From positions 2,790,001 to 2,854,000 of the forward strand of contig CP114179.1 in assembly GCA_039555135.1 (NCBI GenBank): 64,000 nt of DNA, written 5' to 3'. Under the pieces are notes generated by a model, which made no database searches, was not told the DNA's origin, and was given only the letters and a program-made list of their open reading frames with translations. The translations under genes were made by a program, and so were the position numbers. This DNA is from Phycisphaeraceae bacterium D3-23 (lineage in GTDB: Bacteria; Planctomycetota; Phycisphaerae; Phycisphaerales; Phycisphaeraceae). The number at the start of each line of letters is the position of its first letter. Position 1 is the first letter of the stretch. Below, in pieces: positions 28,136 to 37,510 of this stretch.

Positions 28136-29650
28136 ATGGGAGTCACCACGATGCACAACACGAACCAAACCGACCCACGGCTGATCGACCCGTTCGCGAT
28201 TACCCGCCGCCACTTCTTCGGCAAGGCCGCCGCGGGGCTGGGCGGGCTCGCGTTGGCGTCGCTTTTGCCCTCACCCGGCGGCGCGTCCAGCGCACTGGCG
28301 AACGCTATTGCACCGGCCGATGCGGATACCGCCGCGCCCGTCGCCCGGCTCGGGACGCCGCACTTCGCGCCCAAGGCCAAACGCATCATCTACCTCTTCC
28401 AGTCCGGTGGCCCCTCCCATCTCGACCTCTTCGACCACAAGCCACGCCTCAATACCGAGCACGGCAGCGAGCTGCCCGCCACCGTCCGCGGCGAACAACG
28501 CCTGACCAAGATGTCCGCCAACCAGGCCTCGATCCCCCTCGCCGGCTCGCCGTTCAGGTTCGAGAAGCACGGCCAGGCGCAGGGCTCGTTCAGCGAACTC
28601 ATCCCGCACATCGCGGGCATCGCCGACGACATCTGCGTCGTCCGCTCGATGTTCACCGAGGCGATCAACCACGACCCGGCGATCACATTCATCCAGACCG
28701 GCTCGCAGATCGCGGGTCGGCCGTCGATGGGGGCGTGGCTCAGCTACGGCCTGGGCAGCGAGAACCAGGACCTGCCCGCGTTCATCGTGCTGGTCAGTGC
28801 GGGGCAAGGCGGCCAGCCGCTCTACGCGCGTTTGTGGGGCTCGGGCTTTTTAGACTCGCGACACCAAGGCGTGCAGTTCCGCGCGGGCAAAGACCCGGTG
28901 CTGTACCTGAGTGATCCGGATGGCGTCTTCCGATCGGGCCGACGCGCCCTGCTCGATCGCCTGGGTGAGTTGAACCAGCACGCCTACGCGCAGGAACTCG
29001 ACCCGGAGATCGAGTCGCGCATTGCGCAGTACGAGATGGCCTACCGGATGCAGGCGTCGGTGCCCGACACGACTGACCTTAGTGACGAGCCCGAAGAGGT
29101 CTTCGAGCTTTACGGCGAAGACGCACGCCGGCCCGGCACGTTCGCCGCCAACTGCCTGCTCGCCCGCCGTCTCGCCGAGCAGGGCGTCCGCCATATCCAG
29201 CTCTACCACCAGGGCTGGGACCAGCACGACAACCTCCCCGGCGCGATTCGGGGCCAGTGCGCGGAGACCGACCAGCCCTCCGCCGCGCTGATCAAAGACC
29301 TCAAGCGACGCGGCATGCTCGACGACACCCTCGTCGTCTGGGGCGGGGAGTTCGGCCGAACGTCCTACTGCCAGGGCACTCTCACCGCCAACAACTTCGG
29401 CCGCGACCACCATCCGCGCTGCTTCAGCATGTGGATGGCGGGTGGCGGTATCAAGCCCGGCCACATCCACGGGCTGACCGACGACTACGGCTACAACATC
29501 CTCGACGGCGGCGTCCATGTCCACGACCTCAACGCGACCCTGCTCCACCTGCTGGGCATCGACCACGAACGATTGACCCACAAGTACCAGGGCCGACGCT
29601 TCCGTTTGACGGATGTCCACGGCGAAGTGCGGCACGAACTGCTTGCGTAG
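28136..29650 (+). CDS. DUF1501 protein, Tat-exported
   Basis: 504 residues (499 if the in-frame ATG at 28151, which has a better-placed GGGAG, is used). A twin-arginine signal is visible ([20 protein letters not shown]). The rest is DUF1501, which resembles the alkaline phosphatase/sulfatase fold: [21 protein letters not shown]-like metal region [43 protein letters not shown]. It is 54 bp after the PSD1 gene and forms with it a classic planctomycete pair. Enzymatic role unknown; hydrolysis of sulfate or phosphate esters is a reasonable guess. Confidence 0.9.
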
Positions 29651-29735
29651 TGCGGCCGAGGTTTCGGCGCACGCGAAACGAATGGCGCGTCGGGTGTCAC
29701 ATGTGGCGGTTCTCGCTCCCATACCCAGGAGTACA

Positions 29736-32240
29736 ATGACCCTTATGATTCAGCTAATGGCCCCACGAAAGCGAAGAATGAGAGACGCCTGGCCTGGTTC
29801 ACTGACGGTCCTCGGCCTGCTCGCCTCGGCGGTCGGCTGTAGCGGTGGGGATGGAGGCCAAGAGGCGGCGGGTGAAGCACCGGCAGCGGCGGTGGTATCG
29901 GCGGCGAGTATCGAAGTCGTGGCGGTGTCCGCGCCCGATCGGCCGATCCAGTTCAACCGCGACATCCGGCCGATCCTGACGGACAAGTGCTTCGCGTGTC
30001 ATGGCCCCGATGCGGAGACGGTCGAGGCGGGGCTCCGGCTGGATTCATTCGAGGGCGCGACCGATGAGCTGAGCCCGGGCGTGTTTGCCGTGGTACCGGG
30101 CGATGTCGAGGCGAGTGAATTGTGGGTGCGGGTCAACGACACGCGCTACCCGATGCCGCCCGAAGAGGTACACAAGCCGCTTAGCGATACAGACCGCAGG
30201 TTGCTCCGCCGCTGGATCGAGGCGGGGGCCGAGTATCAGCCGCACTGGGCATATGTCGCGCCGGTGGATGTGCCGGTCCCCGCCGTGTCGGCGGCCGACT
30301 GGCCCATGAGTGACATCGACCGTTTCATCCTGCACCGCCTTGAAGATGAAGGCCTGGCGCCGATGGAGGATGCGGACAAGGCGACACTGCTGCGGCGGGT
30401 GACGTACGACTTGACGGGCCTGCCGCCCACGCTGGAAGCGCTCGACGCGTTCCTGGCGGACCATTCCGACGATGCCTTTGAGCGTGTGGTCGATCGGCTG
30501 CTCGATGACAAGCACTTCGGCGAACGTCTGGCGGTGTTCTGGCTCGACCTGGTGCGCTACGCCGATACCGTCGGGTACCACGGCGACCAGACGCACAATG
30601 TCTCGCCCTACCGCGACTGGGTGATCTGGGCGTTCAACGAGAACATGCCCTTCGATACGTTCACGGTCCACCAGTTGGCCGGCGACATGATCGACGGCGC
30701 GGACGAGAACTCCATCATCGCGAGCTGTTACAACCGGCTGCTGCAGACCTCGCACGAGGGCGGGGTGCAGTTCAAGGAGTACGTCGCGATCTACCACGCC
30801 GACCGCGTGCGCAACGTCTCGGAGGCGTGGATGGGCGCGACCGTCGGCTGCGCGCAGTGCCACGACCATAAGTACGACCCGTACAGCGCGCATGACTTCT
30901 ACGCGATGTCCGCCTTCTTCGCGGATATCGATGATGTCGATCACATTAGAAACCCGTTCCAAGGCGGGTTCAACGCGCTGCCCACGCGGCGCGACCCCGA
31001 GCGCGATGTGCTCTCGCCGCTGGACCGCGAGCGGATGGCGGTGCTGCAGTCGCAGATCGAGGCGGCGGCAAACGATGCCGAGAAGCAGGCGCTCCAAACG
31101 CAGCACGATGCAATCACGCCGCGGCGGGTGCTCATCAGCAACTCGGCCGAGCCGCGCGAAGTGCGGCTGCTCCCGCGTGGCAACTGGCTCGACGAGACGG
31201 GGCCGGTGGTCGAGCCCGCGGTGCCCGCGTTCATGGGCGAGCTCGATGTCGAGGGCCGGGCGACTCGGCTCGACCTGGCGCGATGGCTCATCAGCCGCGA
31301 GCAGGACGGCGGCGTCGGCGAGATGACCGCGCGGGTGTTCATGAACCGGCTCTGGGCGCAGTTCTACGGCCGGGGGCTGTGCCCATCGCTCGAAGATTTC
31401 GGCGGGCAGGGCGAGCCGCCCAATCACCCCGAGCTGCTCGACCACCTTGCGCTGGCGTTTGTCGATAGCGGCTGGGACATCAAACAGATGGTCAAGCTGA
31501 TCGTGATGACGCGGACGTATCAGCTGTCGTCTGTGCCGACGGCGGAGCTGGCGCGCATCGACCCGATGAACGACCTCTACGCGCGGCAGTCGCGCAAGCG
31601 CCTGCCTGCCGAGATGATCCGCGACACCGCGCTCAGCGTCAGCGGGCTGCTGGTCGATCAGCTCGGCGGGGCGAGCGTGAACCCGTACCAGCCGGCCGGG
31701 TACTACGCCCACCTCAACTTCCCGCAGCGGCGGTACGCGATTCATGCGGACACCCGCCAGTGGCGGCGTGGCGTGTACGTGCACTGGCAGCGGCAGTTCT
31801 TGCATCCGATGCTCAAGGCCTTCGACGCGCCGACGCGCGAAGAATGCACGGCCGAGCGACCGGTATCGAACACGCCGCTCGCCGCGCTCAACCTGCTCAA
31901 CGACCCGACGTTTATCGAGGCGTCCCGCGCGTTTGCCCAGCGCGTCCTGACCGAGGCGGGGGTCGATAACGAGGTCGGTCCCGGGGCCGACGCGAGACGC
32001 CTGGCGTGGGCGATGCGCACGGCGACGGCGCGGGCGCCCAGCGCCCGTGAGGTCACGGTACTGCTGGACCTGCTCAGTGCGGCGCGTGACTACTATGGAG
32101 CCAACCCGGCCGAGGCGGGCAAGCTGCTGGGCGTGGGCATCGCGCCGCGCGATACGTCGCTTGATGCCGCCGAACACGCCGCGTGGGCCGAGGTCGCCCG
32201 CGCGATTTTGAACCTGCACGAGACGATTACGCGGGGGTGA
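29736..32240 (+). CDS. PSD1 lipoprotein: planctomycete cytochrome c (PSCyt1), DUF1549, DUF1553 (no LamG)
   Basis: 834 residues from ATG 29736, chosen for AGGAG six bases upstream; ATG 29745, 29757 and 29778 are also possible. Lipobox SAVGC puts the lipid anchor at Cys35 and heme motif CFACH at residues 85-89. DUF1549 (RVTYDLTGLPPTLEAL, CAQCHDHKYDPYSAHDFYAM) runs directly into DUF1553 (ARVFMNRLWAQFYGRGLCPS, YARQSRKRLPAEMIRDTAL). It lacks the LamG domain present between these in the paralogue at 24860, about 240 residues shorter overall. Starts 85 bp after the first DUF1501 gene. Confidence 0.92.
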   Translation: MTLMIQLMAPRKRRMRDAWPGSLTVLGLLASAVGCSGGDGGQEAAGEAPAAAVVSAASIEVVAVSAPDRPIQFNRDIRPILTDKCFACHGPDAETVEAGLRLDSFEGATDELSPGVFAVVPGDVEASELWVRVNDTRYPMPPEEVHKPLSDTDRRLLRRWIEAGAEYQPHWAYVAPVDVPVPAVSAADWPMSDIDRFILHRLEDEGLAPMEDADKATLLRRVTYDLTGLPPTLEALDAFLADHSDDAFERVVDRLLDDKHFGERLAVFWLDLVRYADTVGYHGDQTHNVSPYRDWVIWAFNENMPFDTFTVHQLAGDMIDGADENSIIASCYNRLLQTSHEGGVQFKEYVAIYHADRVRNVSEAWMGATVGCAQCHDHKYDPYSAHDFYAMSAFFADIDDVDHIRNPFQGGFNALPTRRDPERDVLSPLDRERMAVLQSQIEAAANDAEKQALQTQHDAITPRRVLISNSAEPREVRLLPRGNWLDETGPVVEPAVPAFMGELDVEGRATRLDLARWLISREQDGGVGEMTARVFMNRLWAQFYGRGLCPSLEDFGGQGEPPNHPELLDHLALAFVDSGWDIKQMVKLIVMTRTYQLSSVPTAELARIDPMNDLYARQSRKRLPAEMIRDTALSVSGLLVDQLGGASVNPYQPAGYYAHLNFPQRRYAIHADTRQWRRGVYVHWQRQFLHPMLKAFDAPTREECTAERPVSNTPLAALNLLNDPTFIEASRAFAQRVLTEAGVDNEVGPGADARRLAWAMRTATARAPSAREVTVLLDLLSAARDYYGANPAEAGKLLGVGIAPRDTSLDAAEHAAWAEVARAILNLHETITRG

Positions 32241-32292
32241 TCTGTTATTGAACTCCGGCGTCCGTAGGCCGCCGGCTAAACTGGGATATTCC

Positions 32293-33780
32293 ATGTTTCA
32301 CGACGACCCCCACGACCCCGCCAGCTTCGCGCAGTTCATGCAGCGCACGACGCGGCGGCAGTTCCTCAGCAAGCTGTCGCTGGGTGTCGGTGCTGCGGCG
32401 CTGGGCGATCTGAGCGGCCTTACCTTCGCCAACGCGCAGGCTGCGGCAACGCTTGGCGTTGCTGCCGGCGGGCAGTACGCCGGCGTCATCAACCCGACCC
32501 ACTTTGCGCCCAAGGCCAAGCGCGTCATCTTCCTCTGCATGGCGGGCGGACCGAGCCACCTCGAAACCTTCGACGACAAGCCCGAGCTCCAGCGGCTCTC
32601 CGGCGAGCCGATGCCCGGCTCGTTCACCGAGGGGATGCCCCTCGCGCAGCTCCAGGGCAAGCCCTTGAACTGCTTGGGCTCGCGCGCGACGTTTGCGCAG
32701 CACGGCGAATCGGGCCAGCGCATCAGCAACTACCTCCCGCACATCGCGACCTGCGCCGACGACATCGCCATCATCAAATCGATGGTGACCGAGCAGATCA
32801 ACCACGACCCCGCGCACACCTTTATGAACACCGGGTCGATCATCTCGGGCCGGCCGAGCATGGGTGCGTGGGTGAACTACGGGCTGGGCTCGCTGAGCGA
32901 CGACCTCCCGGGGTTTGTGGTGCTGACGAGTGTTGGTGGGCGCAACCCCCAGCCGATCGCCGCGCGGCAGTGGGGCAGCGGATTCTTGCCCTCGCGCTTC
33001 CAGGGCGTCGAGTTCAATGGCAAGGGCGACCCGGTGCATTACGTCGCCAACCCCCCGGGCGTGACGAGCGATCGGCAGGAGCACCTGATCGCGGCGGTGC
33101 GCGACCTCAACCGGATGCGTGATGAAGAAGTGCGCGACCCCGAGATCGAGTCGCGCATCGCGCAGTACGAGATGGCGTTCCGCATGCAGGCGTCGGTGCC
33201 TGAGTTGATGGATGTCTCCGACGAATCGCCCGAGACTTTGGAGATGTACGGCGCGACACCCGGCGACGGGTCGTTCGCGAGCAACTGCCTGCTCGCGCGT
33301 CGGTTGGCCGAGCGCGGCGTGCGTTTTATCCACCTCTACCACCGCGGGTGGGACCACCACGGCGGGCTCAAGCAGTACATGGACGTCTGCTGCAGCCACT
33401 GCGACCAGCCCAGCGCCGCGCTAATCAAAGACCTCAAGCGCCGCGGGATGCTCGACGACACGCTCGTCATCTGGGGCGGCGAGTTTGGCCGGACCCCGAT
33501 GTCGCAGGGCGACGGCGACGACCCCGGGCGCGACCACCACATCAAGGGCTTCTCGATGTTCATGGCCGGCGGCGGGATCAGGCCCGGCATCAGCTACGGC
33601 GCGACCGACGAGCTGGGCTACAACGCCATCGAAGACGTCGTCCACGTCCGCGACCTCCACGCGACGATGCTGCATCAGCTGGGCATCGATCATCGTCGGC
33701 TGTCGATGAAGTTCCAGGGGCTCGACGTCAAGCTGACCGGCGTCGAGGAGGCGCATGTCGTGCACGATATCCTCGTGTAA
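32293..33780 (+). CDS. DUF1501 protein, Tat-exported (second copy)
   Basis: 495 residues from ATG 32293; a TTG at 32248 is in frame but would precede the signal peptide with an odd extension. Tat-like motif TTRRQFLSKLSLGVGAAALG. DUF1501 core: [74 protein letters not shown]. Paralogous to the protein at 28136, and follows the second PSD1 gene by 52 bp, so the region is a duplicated two-gene module. Confidence 0.9.
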   Translation: MFHDDPHDPASFAQFMQRTTRRQFLSKLSLGVGAAALGDLSGLTFANAQAAATLGVAAGGQYAGVINPTHFAPKAKRVIFLCMAGGPSHLETFDDKPELQRLSGEPMPGSFTEGMPLAQLQGKPLNCLGSRATFAQHGESGQRISNYLPHIATCADDIAIIKSMVTEQINHDPAHTFMNTGSIISGRPSMGAWVNYGLGSLSDDLPGFVVLTSVGGRNPQPIAARQWGSGFLPSRFQGVEFNGKGDPVHYVANPPGVTSDRQEHLIAAVRDLNRMRDEEVRDPEIESRIAQYEMAFRMQASVPELMDVSDESPETLEMYGATPGDGSFASNCLLARRLAERGVRFIHLYHRGWDHHGGLKQYMDVCCSHCDQPSAALIKDLKRRGMLDDTLVIWGGEFGRTPMSQGDGDDPGRDHHIKGFSMFMAGGGIRPGISYGATDELGYNAIEDVVHVRDLHATMLHQLGIDHRRLSMKFQGLDVKLTGVEEAHVVHDILV

Positions 33781-33914: not shown

Positions 33915-35132
33915 GTGAGACAGTCCATTCGAAACAAGCATGCCGGGCGTCGCGGCCTGCGCGAGTTTTTGGCGGTTGCCGTATTGATGGGTGTATCCGC
34001 ATCGGCGTGGGCGGGTGAGCCGTATGTGCCTGACGATGACGATACGGTGTTGTACGAGCTACCCCAGGCGTGGCGACAGCAGCGCGACGCGGTGACCCGG
34101 GCGCGTGAGGCGTGGGCGGCGGACCCGGGGGATGTCGAGAAGGCGTGTGCCGTGGCCGGCGCGGACCTCCGGCTGGGCCAGGCGACGGGCGACCCGCGTT
34201 TCTATGGCTACGCACGTGCAGCGCTCGGGCCTTGGTGGGATGAATCCGATGCGCCGCCGCAGGTGCTGGCGATCCGGGCGAAGCTGAAAGAGACGGACCA
34301 CGACTATGCCGGGGCGATCGCGGACCTGACGGAGCTGTTGCAGCAGCGACCGCGTGAGACACAGGCGTGGATCGAGCTGACAAACCTGCATCGGGTGCGC
34401 GGGGACTACGTGGCGGCACTGGCGTCGGTCGAGCAGCTCCAGGCGTTTGCCACGCCCGTGCCGGTCGCGCTGGCGCATATCCCGCTGCTCGCGGTGACGG
34501 GCGAGCTCGACGCGGCCGATGCGCAGCTGGCGGCGGTCCGGCCCGTAGTGGAGTCGGATTGGCAGAGCGCGCTGTCGTGGCTGTTGATCATGCAGGCCCA
34601 GCTCGCGCGGGCGCGGGGCGAAGAGATGCAGGCCGAGACGTTTTACCGCCAGGCGATGGCGCGTGACGATGCGTCGGGTTATCTACGCCGCTCATACGCC
34701 GACCTGCTGCTGATGCAGGGGCGCGACGATGCGGCGCTGGCGCTGTGCGAGGACCACACGGGCGATACGGGCCTGCTGCTCCGCGCGGCGATCGCGGCGA
34801 AGCACACCGGCGACACCGAACGCGCCGCGCAGTGGCGCGACGAGCTGCAACGCCGGTTCGAGGAGATCCGCCTGCGCGGCGGCGAGCCGCACGGCCGGTT
34901 CGAGGCCCGCTCCACGCTGGAGGTGCTGGAGCAGCCCGACGCGGCGCTGGAGCTCGCCCTGGCGAACTGGGAAAAACAACGCGAACAGCTCGATGCCCGG
35001 CACGTCCTGGCCGCCGCGCTCGCCGCACGCAACCCCGACGCGGCCCAGCCGGTGTTGACATTCCTGCAGACGCACGGCACGCAAGACGCGGAGCTGCAGG
35101 CGCTGATCGATTCACTGGAGTCTTTGCCGTGA
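33915..35132 (+). CDS. Exported TPR-repeat protein
   Basis: 405 residues from a GTG at 33915 preceded by GAAGGCGG; an upstream ATG at 33885 gives ten extra residues and is less likely. Signal peptide (LREFLAVAVLMGVSASAWAG), then helical repeats of TPR type (AIADLTELLQQRPRETQAWI, LHRVRGDYVAALASVEQLQA). Its stop overlaps the GTG of the next gene by 4 bp, so it is coupled to the HupE/UreJ protein. Function unknown; possibly a scaffold or maturation partner. Confidence 0.8.
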   Translation: MRQSIRNKHAGRRGLREFLAVAVLMGVSASAWAGEPYVPDDDDTVLYELPQAWRQQRDAVTRAREAWAADPGDVEKACAVAGADLRLGQATGDPRFYGYARAALGPWWDESDAPPQVLAIRAKLKETDHDYAGAIADLTELLQQRPRETQAWIELTNLHRVRGDYVAALASVEQLQAFATPVPVALAHIPLLAVTGELDAADAQLAAVRPVVESDWQSALSWLLIMQAQLARARGEEMQAETFYRQAMARDDASGYLRRSYADLLLMQGRDDAALALCEDHTGDTGLLLRAAIAAKHTGDTERAAQWRDELQRRFEEIRLRGGEPHGRFEARSTLEVLEQPDAALELALANWEKQREQLDARHVLAAALAARNPDAAQPVLTFLQTHGTQDAELQALIDSLESLP

Positions 35133-36304
35133 CCCGATCGCGTCGCTTACGATTCGTTTCTCGCAAGTGCTGGCTGTTCTTCGCGGCGGTCGCTGTATCG
35201 ACCCTGTTCGCAGCCGAGGCGCACGCCCACAAGCCCAGCGACAGCTACCTCACGCTCGAGGTCGGCGAGCCGACGCTCACCGCGCGGTGGGACCTGGCGG
35301 TCAAAGACCTTGAGTTCTTGATCGGCATCGATATCGACCGCGACGGCCAAGTGACCTGGGCCGAGCTGCAAGCCCGGCAGGACGACATCGCCGCGCTGGC
35401 GCTGAGCCGGCTCGATGTCGTGGTCGACGGCGAGGAGGCCAACTGGTCGGTCGCCGCGCTGCAGGTCGTCGAGCACAGCGACGGGTTCTACGCCGTGCTC
35501 CGGCTCGAAGCGGACCGGCCCGGCGATGCGGACGAGATCACCGTCACCTACGACCTCTTGTTCGATGCCGACCCGACCCACCGTGGGCTCCTCGTCTTCC
35601 GCGGCGGCGCAATGGACCAGACGCACATCCTCAGCCCCGATGCGCCCTCCGCCGAGTTTCGGCCCGGGCCCGGCGGGACGAACAGCGCGTGGCGTGTCTT
35701 CAAAGAATTTCTGATCGAAGGCGTCTGGCACATCTGGATCGGGCTGGACCACATCCTCTTCCTGCTCGCGCTGCTGCTCCCGGCCGTGTGGCTGCGTCAG
35801 GACAAAAAATGGGAGCCGGTCGAGTCGGTCAAGCCCGCGCTCTGGGCGGTGCTCAAGATCGTGACGATGTTCACCCTCGCACATTCGATCACGCTCTGGC
35901 TCGCGGTGACCGAGGTCGTGTCGCTGCCCAGCCGGGCCATCGAGGCGACCATCGCCGCGTCGATCGTCGTCACCGCGCTCAACAACTTCTTCCCGCAGAA
36001 GTGGCTCAAGGGCTGGATGATCGCGGTCGGCTTCGGGCTCATCCACGGCTTCGGGTTCGCCAATGTCCTGGTCGATCTCGGGCTCCGCGACACCGCGCTG
36101 GCTGTCTCGCTGTTCGCGTTCAACGTCGGCGTCGAGCTCGGGCAGATGGCGATCGTGCTGGCCTTCTTCCCCGCCGCGTTCGCGCTGCGCAAGACCGACT
36201 TTTATCGATGGGGCGTCTTCACCGCGGGCTCGGCCGCGATCGGGCTGCTGGCCCTGCTCTGGTTTATCGAGCGGGCGTGGAACCTCACAATCGTCGGTTT
36301 CTAG
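35129..36304 (+). CDS. HupE/UreJ family membrane protein
   Basis: 391 residues from GTG 35129, which overlaps the preceding stop (GTGA). Signal peptide ending AEAHAHKPSDSYL, a periplasmic domain of about 190 residues with an EF-hand-like loop (DIDRDGQVTWAELQ), then about six membrane segments with HupE/UreJ_2 motifs (GVWHIWIGLDHILFLLALLL, TMFTLAHSITLWLAV, GFGLIHGFGFANVLVDLGL). Histidines in the membrane part could bind metal; relatives are linked to nickel or cobalt uptake, but no urease or hydrogenase gene is near. Acts with the TPR and DUF4331 neighbours. Confidence 0.85.
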   Translation: MTRSRRLRFVSRKCWLFFAAVAVSTLFAAEAHAHKPSDSYLTLEVGEPTLTARWDLAVKDLEFLIGIDIDRDGQVTWAELQARQDDIAALALSRLDVVVDGEEANWSVAALQVVEHSDGFYAVLRLEADRPGDADEITVTYDLLFDADPTHRGLLVFRGGAMDQTHILSPDAPSAEFRPGPGGTNSAWRVFKEFLIEGVWHIWIGLDHILFLLALLLPAVWLRQDKKWEPVESVKPALWAVLKIVTMFTLAHSITLWLAVTEVVSLPSRAIEATIAASIVVTALNNFFPQKWLKGWMIAVGFGLIHGFGFANVLVDLGLRDTALAVSLFAFNVGVELGQMAIVLAFFPAAFALRKTDFYRWGVFTAGSAAIGLLALLWFIERAWNLTIVGF

Positions 36305-36469
36305 CCAGTGTTGCCTGTGCAGTATCCAGGGGGTCGCCGGCCGGAGATGAAAAGTCCACAAAATCGCCGCTTGCCGGCATCCGCCGGTCGCCCCAGTCCG
36401 AATCCTTGTCTACAGAGGAGTCTTCACGTCAAGATTTCGACTCACACGACCCATTTCAAGGAGATATTG

Positions 36470-37510
36470 ATGATCCCCGCCCCCCGCAAACAACGCACGG
36501 CCCTCGGCGTCGCGACCTCGACCGGCATGCTGCTCGCCCTAGGGGCCGCGCCCGCTCTCGCCGCGGACCACCTCGACGCCCCGGCTGTGCAGGCCAATGG
36601 CCAGGCCGACATCAACGACCTCTACGCCTTCCAGTCGCTCGAGAACGCCAACAACAGCGTCCTCATCATGACCGTCAACCCCGCCGCGAGCGTTTTCAGC
36701 CCGACCACCTTCGGTACAAACGTCGCCTACAACTTCAACATCGACAATACCGGCGATGGCGTCGCCAACCTCGTCTACACCACCACCTTCGGCGCACAGG
36801 CCGGCGGGGTGCAGGCCCTGACCACGACGCTCAACGGCGGGGCCTACGCCACCGGCGTGACCGGCTCCACCTCCGCGACGACCAGCGGCGGACGCATCAC
36901 CGCCGGGCTCTTTGAAGACCCGTTCTTCTTCGACCTCGACGGCTTCAACGATGGCTTCAACTTTACAGGCGACGACTTCTTTGCCGGCCTCGATGTCAGC
37001 GCGATCGTCCTCGAAGTCGACAACGCCGAACTGGCGGGCCCCAACATTGGCGTCTGGGTGACCACCGAAGTCGACGGCGTCCAGTTCGACCGCATGGGCC
37101 GACCCGCAGTCAACACCGTGCTCATCGGCGACGGGCGTAAAGATGATTTCAACAACGGCGACCCGACCACCGATTTCGCTGAATTCGGTGCCGAGGTCAA
37201 CGCCGTGATCGCATCGCTCAGCAGCCAGGCCAACGCCGACGCCCTGACCCCGATCCTGCTGCCCGACGTGCTGACGTTCGATACGTCCAACGCCAGCGGC
37301 TTCCTCAACGGCCGCGGGCTGACCGACGACGTGATCGACGCTGAGCTCGGCCTGCTTACCGAAGGCGGCCTGACGACCGATGGTGTCAACGCCAACGACG
37401 TCGCGTTCCTCAGCGTCTTCCCGTACCTCGCCCCGGCCAACGTCCCCGAGCCCGGCTCGCTCGCGCTGCTGGGCCTCGGCGGCTTGGCGCTCCTGCGTCG
37501 CCGCCGCTAA
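36470..37510 (+). CDS. DUF4331 family secreted protein with PEP-CTERM tail
   Basis: 346 residues. ATG 36470 has AAGGAG eight bases upstream and opens a signal peptide ending ALAADHLDAPAV. The mature N-terminus DHLDAPAVQANGQADINDLY and the segments NVAYNFNIDN and GRPAVNTVLIGDGRKDDFN identify DUF4331. The tail VPEPGSLALLGLGG plus RRRRR matches the four other plus-strand PEP-CTERM genes. DUF4331 proteins are often found beside HupE/UreJ and TPR genes, as here, but their job is not known. Confidence 0.87.
   Translation: MIPAPRKQRTALGVATSTGMLLALGAAPALAADHLDAPAVQANGQADINDLYAFQSLENANNSVLIMTVNPAASVFSPTTFGTNVAYNFNIDNTGDGVANLVYTTTFGAQAGGVQALTTTLNGGAYATGVTGSTSATTSGGRITAGLFEDPFFFDLDGFNDGFNFTGDDFFAGLDVSAIVLEVDNAELAGPNIGVWVTTEVDGVQFDRMGRPAVNTVLIGDGRKDDFNNGDPTTDFAEFGAEVNAVIASLSSQANADALTPILLPDVLTFDTSNASGFLNGRGLTDDVIDAELGLLTEGGLTTDGVNANDVAFLSVFPYLAPANVPEPGSLALLGLGGLALLRRRR

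Follow-up and report, generated by a model that had tools for sequence, protein, structure and literature searches.

A TPR, anglerase-type HupE/UreJ-2 and DUF4331 gene module of a planctomycete, a candidate envelope system for a transition metal

The closest described relatives of the permease considered here are the anglerases, a permease type described in 2025 and named in PMC12537917. According to that paper, Ang-1 and Ang-2 carry a signal peptide followed by a histidine (His1), and a beta-sandwich periplasmic domain sits on a PF13795 membrane domain; anglerase domains bind copper in vitro with dissociation constants of 62 and 74 nM, one of them binds nickel (220 nM), and the authors argue for uptake. 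Ang-1 is reported there mainly from Pseudomonadota and Ang-2 from Actinomycetota, whereas the permease described here is planctomycetal. It is encoded in a stretch of 64,000 nucleotides (the window, positions 2790001-2854000) of Phycisphaeraceae bacterium D3-23, whose genome is a single contig of 4.6 Mb (CP114179.1), and it stands between a tetratricopeptide repeat (TPR) gene and a DUF4331 (PF14224) gene on the forward strand. The main text of PMC12537917 mentions neither TPR nor DUF4331, while the window anglerase is part of a TPR/DUF4331 module. With modest confidence, we favor the reading that the three genes make up an envelope module, linked in translation, that handles a transition metal (nickel, cobalt, or copper) and in which DUF4331 would be the metal-binding partner of the anglerase-capped permease and the TPR protein the go-between. 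Such a module would assign the widespread DUF4331 family a role open to testing and give the newly named anglerases partner proteins. The constituent families and the anglerase permease type are known; a description of the TPR/DUF4331/anglerase module, of the NicO substitution with a shared domain, or of the family-wide X-X-His reported below was not found in searches of the open-licence literature, nor was any paper on DUF4331.

The TPR gene (33915-35132, +, GTG start, read directly from the sequence) shares a GTGA stop/start overlap of 4 bp (35129-35132, +) with the permease gene (35129-36304, +, GTG start), and the DUF4331 gene (36470-37510, +) begins at an ATG after AAGGAGAT. This arrangement, a 4-bp overlap followed by a DUF4331 PEP-CTERM gene, had been claimed in an earlier note on this DNA and was confirmed by sequence reading and Pfam. 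The TPR protein scores 24.4 bits against Pfam TPR_19, just below the 25-bit cut-off, in two stretches, and its start looks like that of a secreted protein; at L035, an 18-kb locus from the same family and the nearest relative, the TPR copy has a lipobox-like LIGGC. The window genome yielded a single DUF4331 gene (a match in three pieces, one frame) and a single HupE_UreJ_2 match. The flanks of the trio differ in kind, with a DUF1501 gene upstream and an ABC-transporter permease gene on the opposite strand downstream, and protein similarity between the window and L035 is confined to the trio and its shadow frames; the trio is therefore taken as the unit. A scan of the window locus for promoters and terminators gave nothing exceeding shuffles.

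Judged by its sequence and its structural model, the window permease is a predicted anglerase-type HupE/UreJ-2 protein with an N-terminal periplasmic anglerase-like domain. It matches PF13795 with its membrane domain (Pfam, E 4.7e-47, 160 bits) and misses the PF04955 cut-off (19.5 against 23 bits). The model (pLDDT, the predicted local distance difference test, 88.7) has an immunoglobulin-like beta-sandwich periplasmic domain as in 9GCE, and 9GCE, which is Ang-1 with copper bound, is its top PDB match (E 4.5e-7, template modelling score 0.65 by target, root-mean-square deviation 5.2), followed by Zn-bound PA4063 and ZrgA. Sequence searches of the PDB, run with the HupE and DUF4331 proteins of the window and with both alignments, returned nothing convincing. 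As in Ang-1 and Ang-2 (PMC12537917), a signal-peptide-like start, here ending in AHA, precedes a predicted mature start HKPSD, which places the putative N-terminal His codon at 35228-35230 (+; AHA/HKPSD cut, -3/-1 rule applied by eye). A His after a signal-peptide-like start was likewise seen by eye in 37 of the 39 module HupE pieces whose N-terminus is included (41 pieces in total), the exceptions being L086 and the frame-broken L127. The H1 column of alignment A3 adds no separate evidence for this, as its rows were trimmed to a His, in one case (L131) to a wrong one. Most of the 20 HupE proteins encoded away from DUF4331 also have such a His by eye, and anglerase permeases are therefore broader than the module.

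The HX5DH motif of the transmembrane domain (35729-35752, +; predicted mature His168, Asp174, and His175) and two further His are invariant over 21 aligned module HupE proteins. HX5DH is shared with the Rhizobium HupE nickel permease (PF04955). The second motif of the Rhizobium protein is FHGxAHGxE, but the window permease has LIHGFGFA in its place, and its genome has no hydrogenase match. The earlier note had also pointed to an EF-hand-like loop in the periplasmic domain (DIDRDGQVTWAE, 35327-35374, +). The loop is real, a DxDxDG type occurring in 14 of 28 module HupE domains (0.44 expected) and in 13 of 33 domains of NicO permeases, far above shuffles, in which 0.4-0.5 would be expected; the window loop, however, stays below the cut-off of Pfam EF-hand_5 (13 against 25.9 bits), and we rejected it as the key feature because only about half of the relatives have it. 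An envelope complex that is centered on this loop and senses or depends on calcium would fit its excess over shuffles but is highly improbable, for the loop is missing from about half or more of the domains, whereas the N-terminal His is nearly always present.

The DUF4331 protein of the window, of the short type, passes the PF14224 cut-off with 145.5 against 27 bits and carries a PEP-CTERM sorting signal at its end (37442-37507, +; Pfam, 29.2 bits). Cleavage by rule would leave Ala-Asp-His (36563-36571, +) as the mature N-terminus. A free N-terminal X-X-His is the amino-terminal Cu(II)- and Ni(II)-binding (ATCUN) pattern, which binds Cu(II) or Ni(II). An X-X-His stands near the start of the DUF4331 domain in 156 of the 158 pieces holding the N-terminus (SSH 116, ASH 16, ADH 12, SDH 5, and others), preceded by Ala in 135 and Gly in 9 (144 of 156) and usually followed by x-[DE]-A-P; in this count, the tripeptide of L146 was mis-picked (it is really Met-SSH), L128 is cut at a contig end, and L191 holds SSH but fails the pattern. 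Pro was never found at position 2 (0 of 114 cases in which any residue was allowed at positions 1 and 2). The predicted free X-X-His without Pro at position 2 thus resembles ATCUN Cu(II)/Ni(II) sites, and, unlike known ATCUN sites, the ATCUN-type pattern is conserved over a whole protein family. The rows of alignment A2 were chosen by the N-terminal motif, which makes H3 and P7 invariant by selection; in alignment A1 (nine rows, no such selection), S-S-H is also invariant. With cleavage at A-S-S/H as an alternative, His would become the first residue in SSH types, though hardly in ADH types. Two DUF4331 proteins (L139 and L176) start with Met-Ser-Ser-His and have no ATG, GTG, or TTG upstream in frame, which suggests cytoplasmic copies in which removal of Met would leave His at position 3. 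Met also stands directly before SSH in L130 and L146. Taken together, the predicted N-terminal His of the permease and the X-X-His of DUF4331 point to a metal.

Genomes were drawn phylum by phylum and searched for DUF4331, and relatives were scanned on named genome contigs. DUF4331 was present in 44 of 294 Planctomycetota genomes, 38 of 198 Actinomycetota (the phylum of a Nocardioides genome), and 14 of 249 Pseudomonadota (the phylum of a Marinobacterium genome). The named-contig scan was limited to the best 80 of 572 relatives, with 81 DUF4331 units in 80 loci, and is not an unbiased draw. Left out were 7 of the 44 positive Planctomycetota genomes (short contigs; G000 is the window itself), 13 of the 38 Actinomycetota (12 with weak matches, short contigs, or contig ends, and one already in the set as L135), and 1 of the 14 Pseudomonadota (already in the set as L084); one contig entered two of the sets under the handles L054 and L094 and was counted once in each. 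Neighbors were located by profiles built in this analysis. Within 2 kb of DUF4331 and on its strand, a TPR gene is present in 16 of 40 Planctomycetota units, 24 of 27 Actinomycetota units, 7 of 13 Pseudomonadota units, and 56 of 81 units of the best-80-of-572 scan; a permease gene within 4 kb on the same strand joins 5, 17, 7, and 42 of these, respectively. Only 1 of 105 TPR matches in 2.49 Mb of sequence was more than 4 kb from any DUF4331, a count biased toward module TPR proteins because the profile was made from four module members. The core pair is DUF4331 and TPR, found adjacent in many phyla, with the permease as a frequent third member in about nine. HupE-type trios bear the labels Planctomycetota, Verrucomicrobiota, Acidobacteriota, Armatimonadota, Pseudomonadota, Myxococcota, and Desulfuromonadales, and NicO-type trios the labels Actinomycetota, Cyanobacteriota, and Armatimonadota; many of these loci come from metagenome bins, and individual phylum labels may be wrong. 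The earlier note had proposed that the trio forms an envelope system of its own, an idea that would have fallen if the three genes rarely occurred together outside close relatives; the survey of DUF4331 neighborhoods found the opposite and lends the proposal support. What the note overlooked is the anglerase N-terminal His, the X-X-His of DUF4331, the NicO substitution, and the DUF4331 and TPR core pair.

Plasmids show the same grouping. Ten of 32 annotated records were inspected, selected for taxon spread, and six of them carry DUF4331, TPR, and permease genes together (Marinobacter adhaerens, Pseudoalteromonas, Lichenicola, a Comamonadaceae strain, Streptomyces anulatus, and Nostoc), the permease of the Streptomyces anulatus plasmid being annotated as 'nickel transporter'. 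The Adhaeribacter and Miltoncostaea plasmids have DUF4331 and TPR without a permease, and those of Sulfitobacter (L216) and Jannaschia (L217) have DUF4331 with neither TPR nor permease in the inspected stretch, where type II secretion genes adjoin; together with the PEP-CTERM signal in the window, these genes set DUF4331 in a surface or secretion context. All eight plasmid TPR proteins match the module TPR profile (E 4e-17 to 8e-70), and those of Lichenicola and the Comamonadaceae strain are under the Pfam TPR cut-offs. A phage DUF4331 was sought with one query, which gave no match. Some DUF4331 loci have peculiarities of their own: the frame is split in two pieces in L053 (7911-9554), L099, L127, and L103; two DUF4331 genes lie near each other in L136 and L219; and, in Pseudomonadota, a small gene, a possible fourth member, stands between DUF4331 and TPR (L184:8724-8972, lipoprotein-like), with small genes at that position in L214 and L222 as well and a longer one in L215.

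The order of the genes varies (TPR-DUF4331-HupE, DUF4331-TPR-HupE, DUF4331-TPR-NicO, and, in the window and L035, TPR-HupE-DUF4331), and the 4-bp overlap follows one junction. An in-frame permease start shares 4 bp with the TPR stop at 34 of the 41 junctions between a TPR and a permease gene (HupE 10 of 12, NicO 24 of 29), and the same test finds 8 of 110 at the other junctions of these gene kinds (DUF4331 to TPR 2 of 55, TPR to DUF4331 6 of 28, DUF4331 to HupE 0 of 25, and HupE to DUF4331 0 of 2). The 34 overlaps are not independent events, since many NicO cases are from related Streptomyces. By annotated starts, three of the six plasmid trios have the overlap.

The slot after the TPR gene is taken by a NicO-family permease (Pfam) in Actinomycetota, Nostoc, and some Armatimonadota; L118 has a short NicO copy without a Pfam match. 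NicO/RcnA nickel-cobalt permeases (PF03824) are a membrane family other than that of the window permease, yet they occupy the same slot, mostly with the same 4-bp overlap. An A-x-A/H cut before an HPLGNF-type start is present in 33 of 33 NicO matches. Profile comparison of the periplasmic domains of HupE and of NicO (33 domains) by hhalign, with one HupE set that was partly mis-trimmed and one cleaner set of 28 domains, gave probabilities of 93-96% (E 5e-9 to 3e-7 per single comparison), against at most 1.1% for controls with TPR or DUF4331 profiles; with only six NicO domains, the values were 48 and 63%. On this evidence, the two domains are homologous, and a homologous domain thus caps NicO permeases too, unlike Ang-1 and Ang-2 as described in PMC12537917.

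In the proposed mechanism, DUF4331 would be exported and held at the cell surface, in the window by its PEP-CTERM signal, and would hold the metal with its free N-terminal X-X-His and its conserved core. The putatively secreted TPR protein would dock, or hand the metal over, between DUF4331 and the permease, whose periplasmic anglerase domain, starting with His1, would receive it and deliver it to the HX5DH channel of the inner membrane. Of the candidate metals, nickel probably agrees best with all the parts, followed by copper and cobalt. A bolder form of this proposal makes DUF4331 a secreted protein metallophore, whose family-wide encoded ATCUN site passes nickel, cobalt, or copper via a TPR adaptor to the N-terminal His of the permease, the same relay driving the unrelated HupE/UreJ-2 and NicO permeases in about nine phyla; we regard it as unlikely in this full form. 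If right, the favored reading itself would describe a metal relay of two free protein N-termini, found from planctomycetes to Streptomyces and Nostoc and served by interchangeable permeases, and it would explain a nickel/cobalt-type permease in a genome without a urease or NiFe-hydrogenase match.

Several observations weigh against a metal module of this kind. In the Planctomycetota draw, 24 of 40 DUF4331 units have no TPR neighbor and 35 of 40 no HupE, and where a genome of this draw has both DUF4331 and HupE_UreJ_2 (17 genomes), the two adjoin in only seven, once with a HupE fragment. No TPR neighbor was seen at any of 20 HupE loci chosen for lying apart from DUF4331 (one TPR match is 4.4 kb off); only this TPR count is a test, as DUF4331 is absent from these loci by choice. 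The DUF4331 model (residues 32-322, pLDDT 83.2, predicted template modelling score 0.86) has no clear structural relative, with no Foldseek match under E 0.001. In a second comparison (VIA), the 50 rows listed were almost all antibody domains with Z below 7, a common sandwich that we did not take as a sign of kinship. Cobalt in particular slightly destabilized Ang-1 (PMC12537917). Finally, X-X-His could be kept for folding, and this is the core of another explanation, in which DUF4331 is a surface protein or enzyme without a metal role, merely co-regulated, the X-X-His and the following D/E-A-P are a folding element, and the TPR protein and the permease work apart. The x-[DE]-A-P that usually follows is what a structural element might look like, and the frequent DUF4331 units without TPR, as well as the type II secretion genes beside DUF4331 in Sulfitobacter and Jannaschia, agree with it. 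We nevertheless find this explanation doubtful, because L139 and L176, without an upstream start, keep a His that would be at position 3 once Met is removed, Pro never occurs at position 2, and the link to nickel/cobalt-type permeases recurs with two permease families.

Uptake as the direction of transport is slightly favored over export, and the regulatory context argues the other way. Genes for extracytoplasmic function (ECF) sigma factors lie within 4.5 kb of DUF4331 in 14 of 40 units of Planctomycetota, 33 of 81 of the best-80-of-572 scan, 14 of 27 of Actinomycetota, and 9 of 13 of Pseudomonadota, and a ChrR-cupin anti-sigma gene is beside them in 11, 12, 0, and 0, respectively. Pfam confirmed the RskA type in four of four anti-sigma proteins checked and ChrR cupins in two of two. 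Anti-sigma genes next to both ECF sigma and DUF4331 occur in several phyla and are of the ChrR-cupin type in L039, L041, L042, L044, L045, L047, L052, L055-L057, and L064, and of the RskA type in L156, L184, L187, and L215. In the window, the nearest sigma match is about 12.7 kb upstream of the trio. ECF sigma genes near many DUF4331 units, with RskA or ChrR anti-sigma factors in all six proteins checked, are typical of stress responses and would suit the same module run in reverse, for metal export or detoxification, with DUF4331 buffering metal outside the cell. The NicO family, moreover, includes RcnA-type exporters. Against such a reversal, the HupE of Rhizobium is reportedly a nickel transporter required for hydrogenase activity, and five loci (L133, L135, L136, L144, and L145) have, no more than 7 kb away, genes of the cobalt importer (CbiM and CbiQ), which are uptake genes. 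With the argument for uptake made in PMC12537917 added, we consider export somewhat unlikely.

The metal enzymes of the window genome bear on the same question. The earlier note had observed that no urease or hydrogenase is near the trio, and this holds genome-wide: neither urease alpha (PF00449) nor NiFe-hydrogenase (PF00374) has a match in the whole genome, while controls matched. CbiM has no match in this genome either. These three absences speak for export. The first two also tell against a nickel supply, as they leave no nickel enzyme known to need one in this genome. Of the same bearing on the proposed metal module, the link to cbi genes is absent from all 27 loci of the Actinomycetota draw, and no cobalamin or NiCo riboswitch was found in the window or in eight further loci (six Actinomycetota, one Armatimonadota, and one Chloroflexi). 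A search for nickel superoxide dismutase has no bearing, as none of its controls gave a match. The B12-dependent MetH is present in the window genome; the match of its B12-activation domain (G000:C1:12515-13270) reads through one in-frame TGA.

The three proteins of the window differ in their nearest relatives. In a HupE tree that kept 33 of 41 HupE pieces (removed were the near-copies L054 and L099 and any piece lacking the complete membrane core), the window HupE clusters with Pseudomonadota module HupE proteins, three of them labelled Gammaproteobacteria, in a 12-row all-module set with 99/94 support, apart from other planctomycete HupE. The module label changes five times on the HupE tree, against 16.3 in shuffles. 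The best matches of the window TPR protein after L035 are also Pseudomonadota TPR proteins, and those of the window DUF4331 are DUF4331 proteins of the Planctomycetota draw; the trio may therefore combine pieces of different descent. Upstream of the trio, the DUF1501 gene (32248-33780, Pfam) comes after a gene for an 875-residue protein and a second DUF1501-like gene recognized by eye, all within 28136-33780 of the window.

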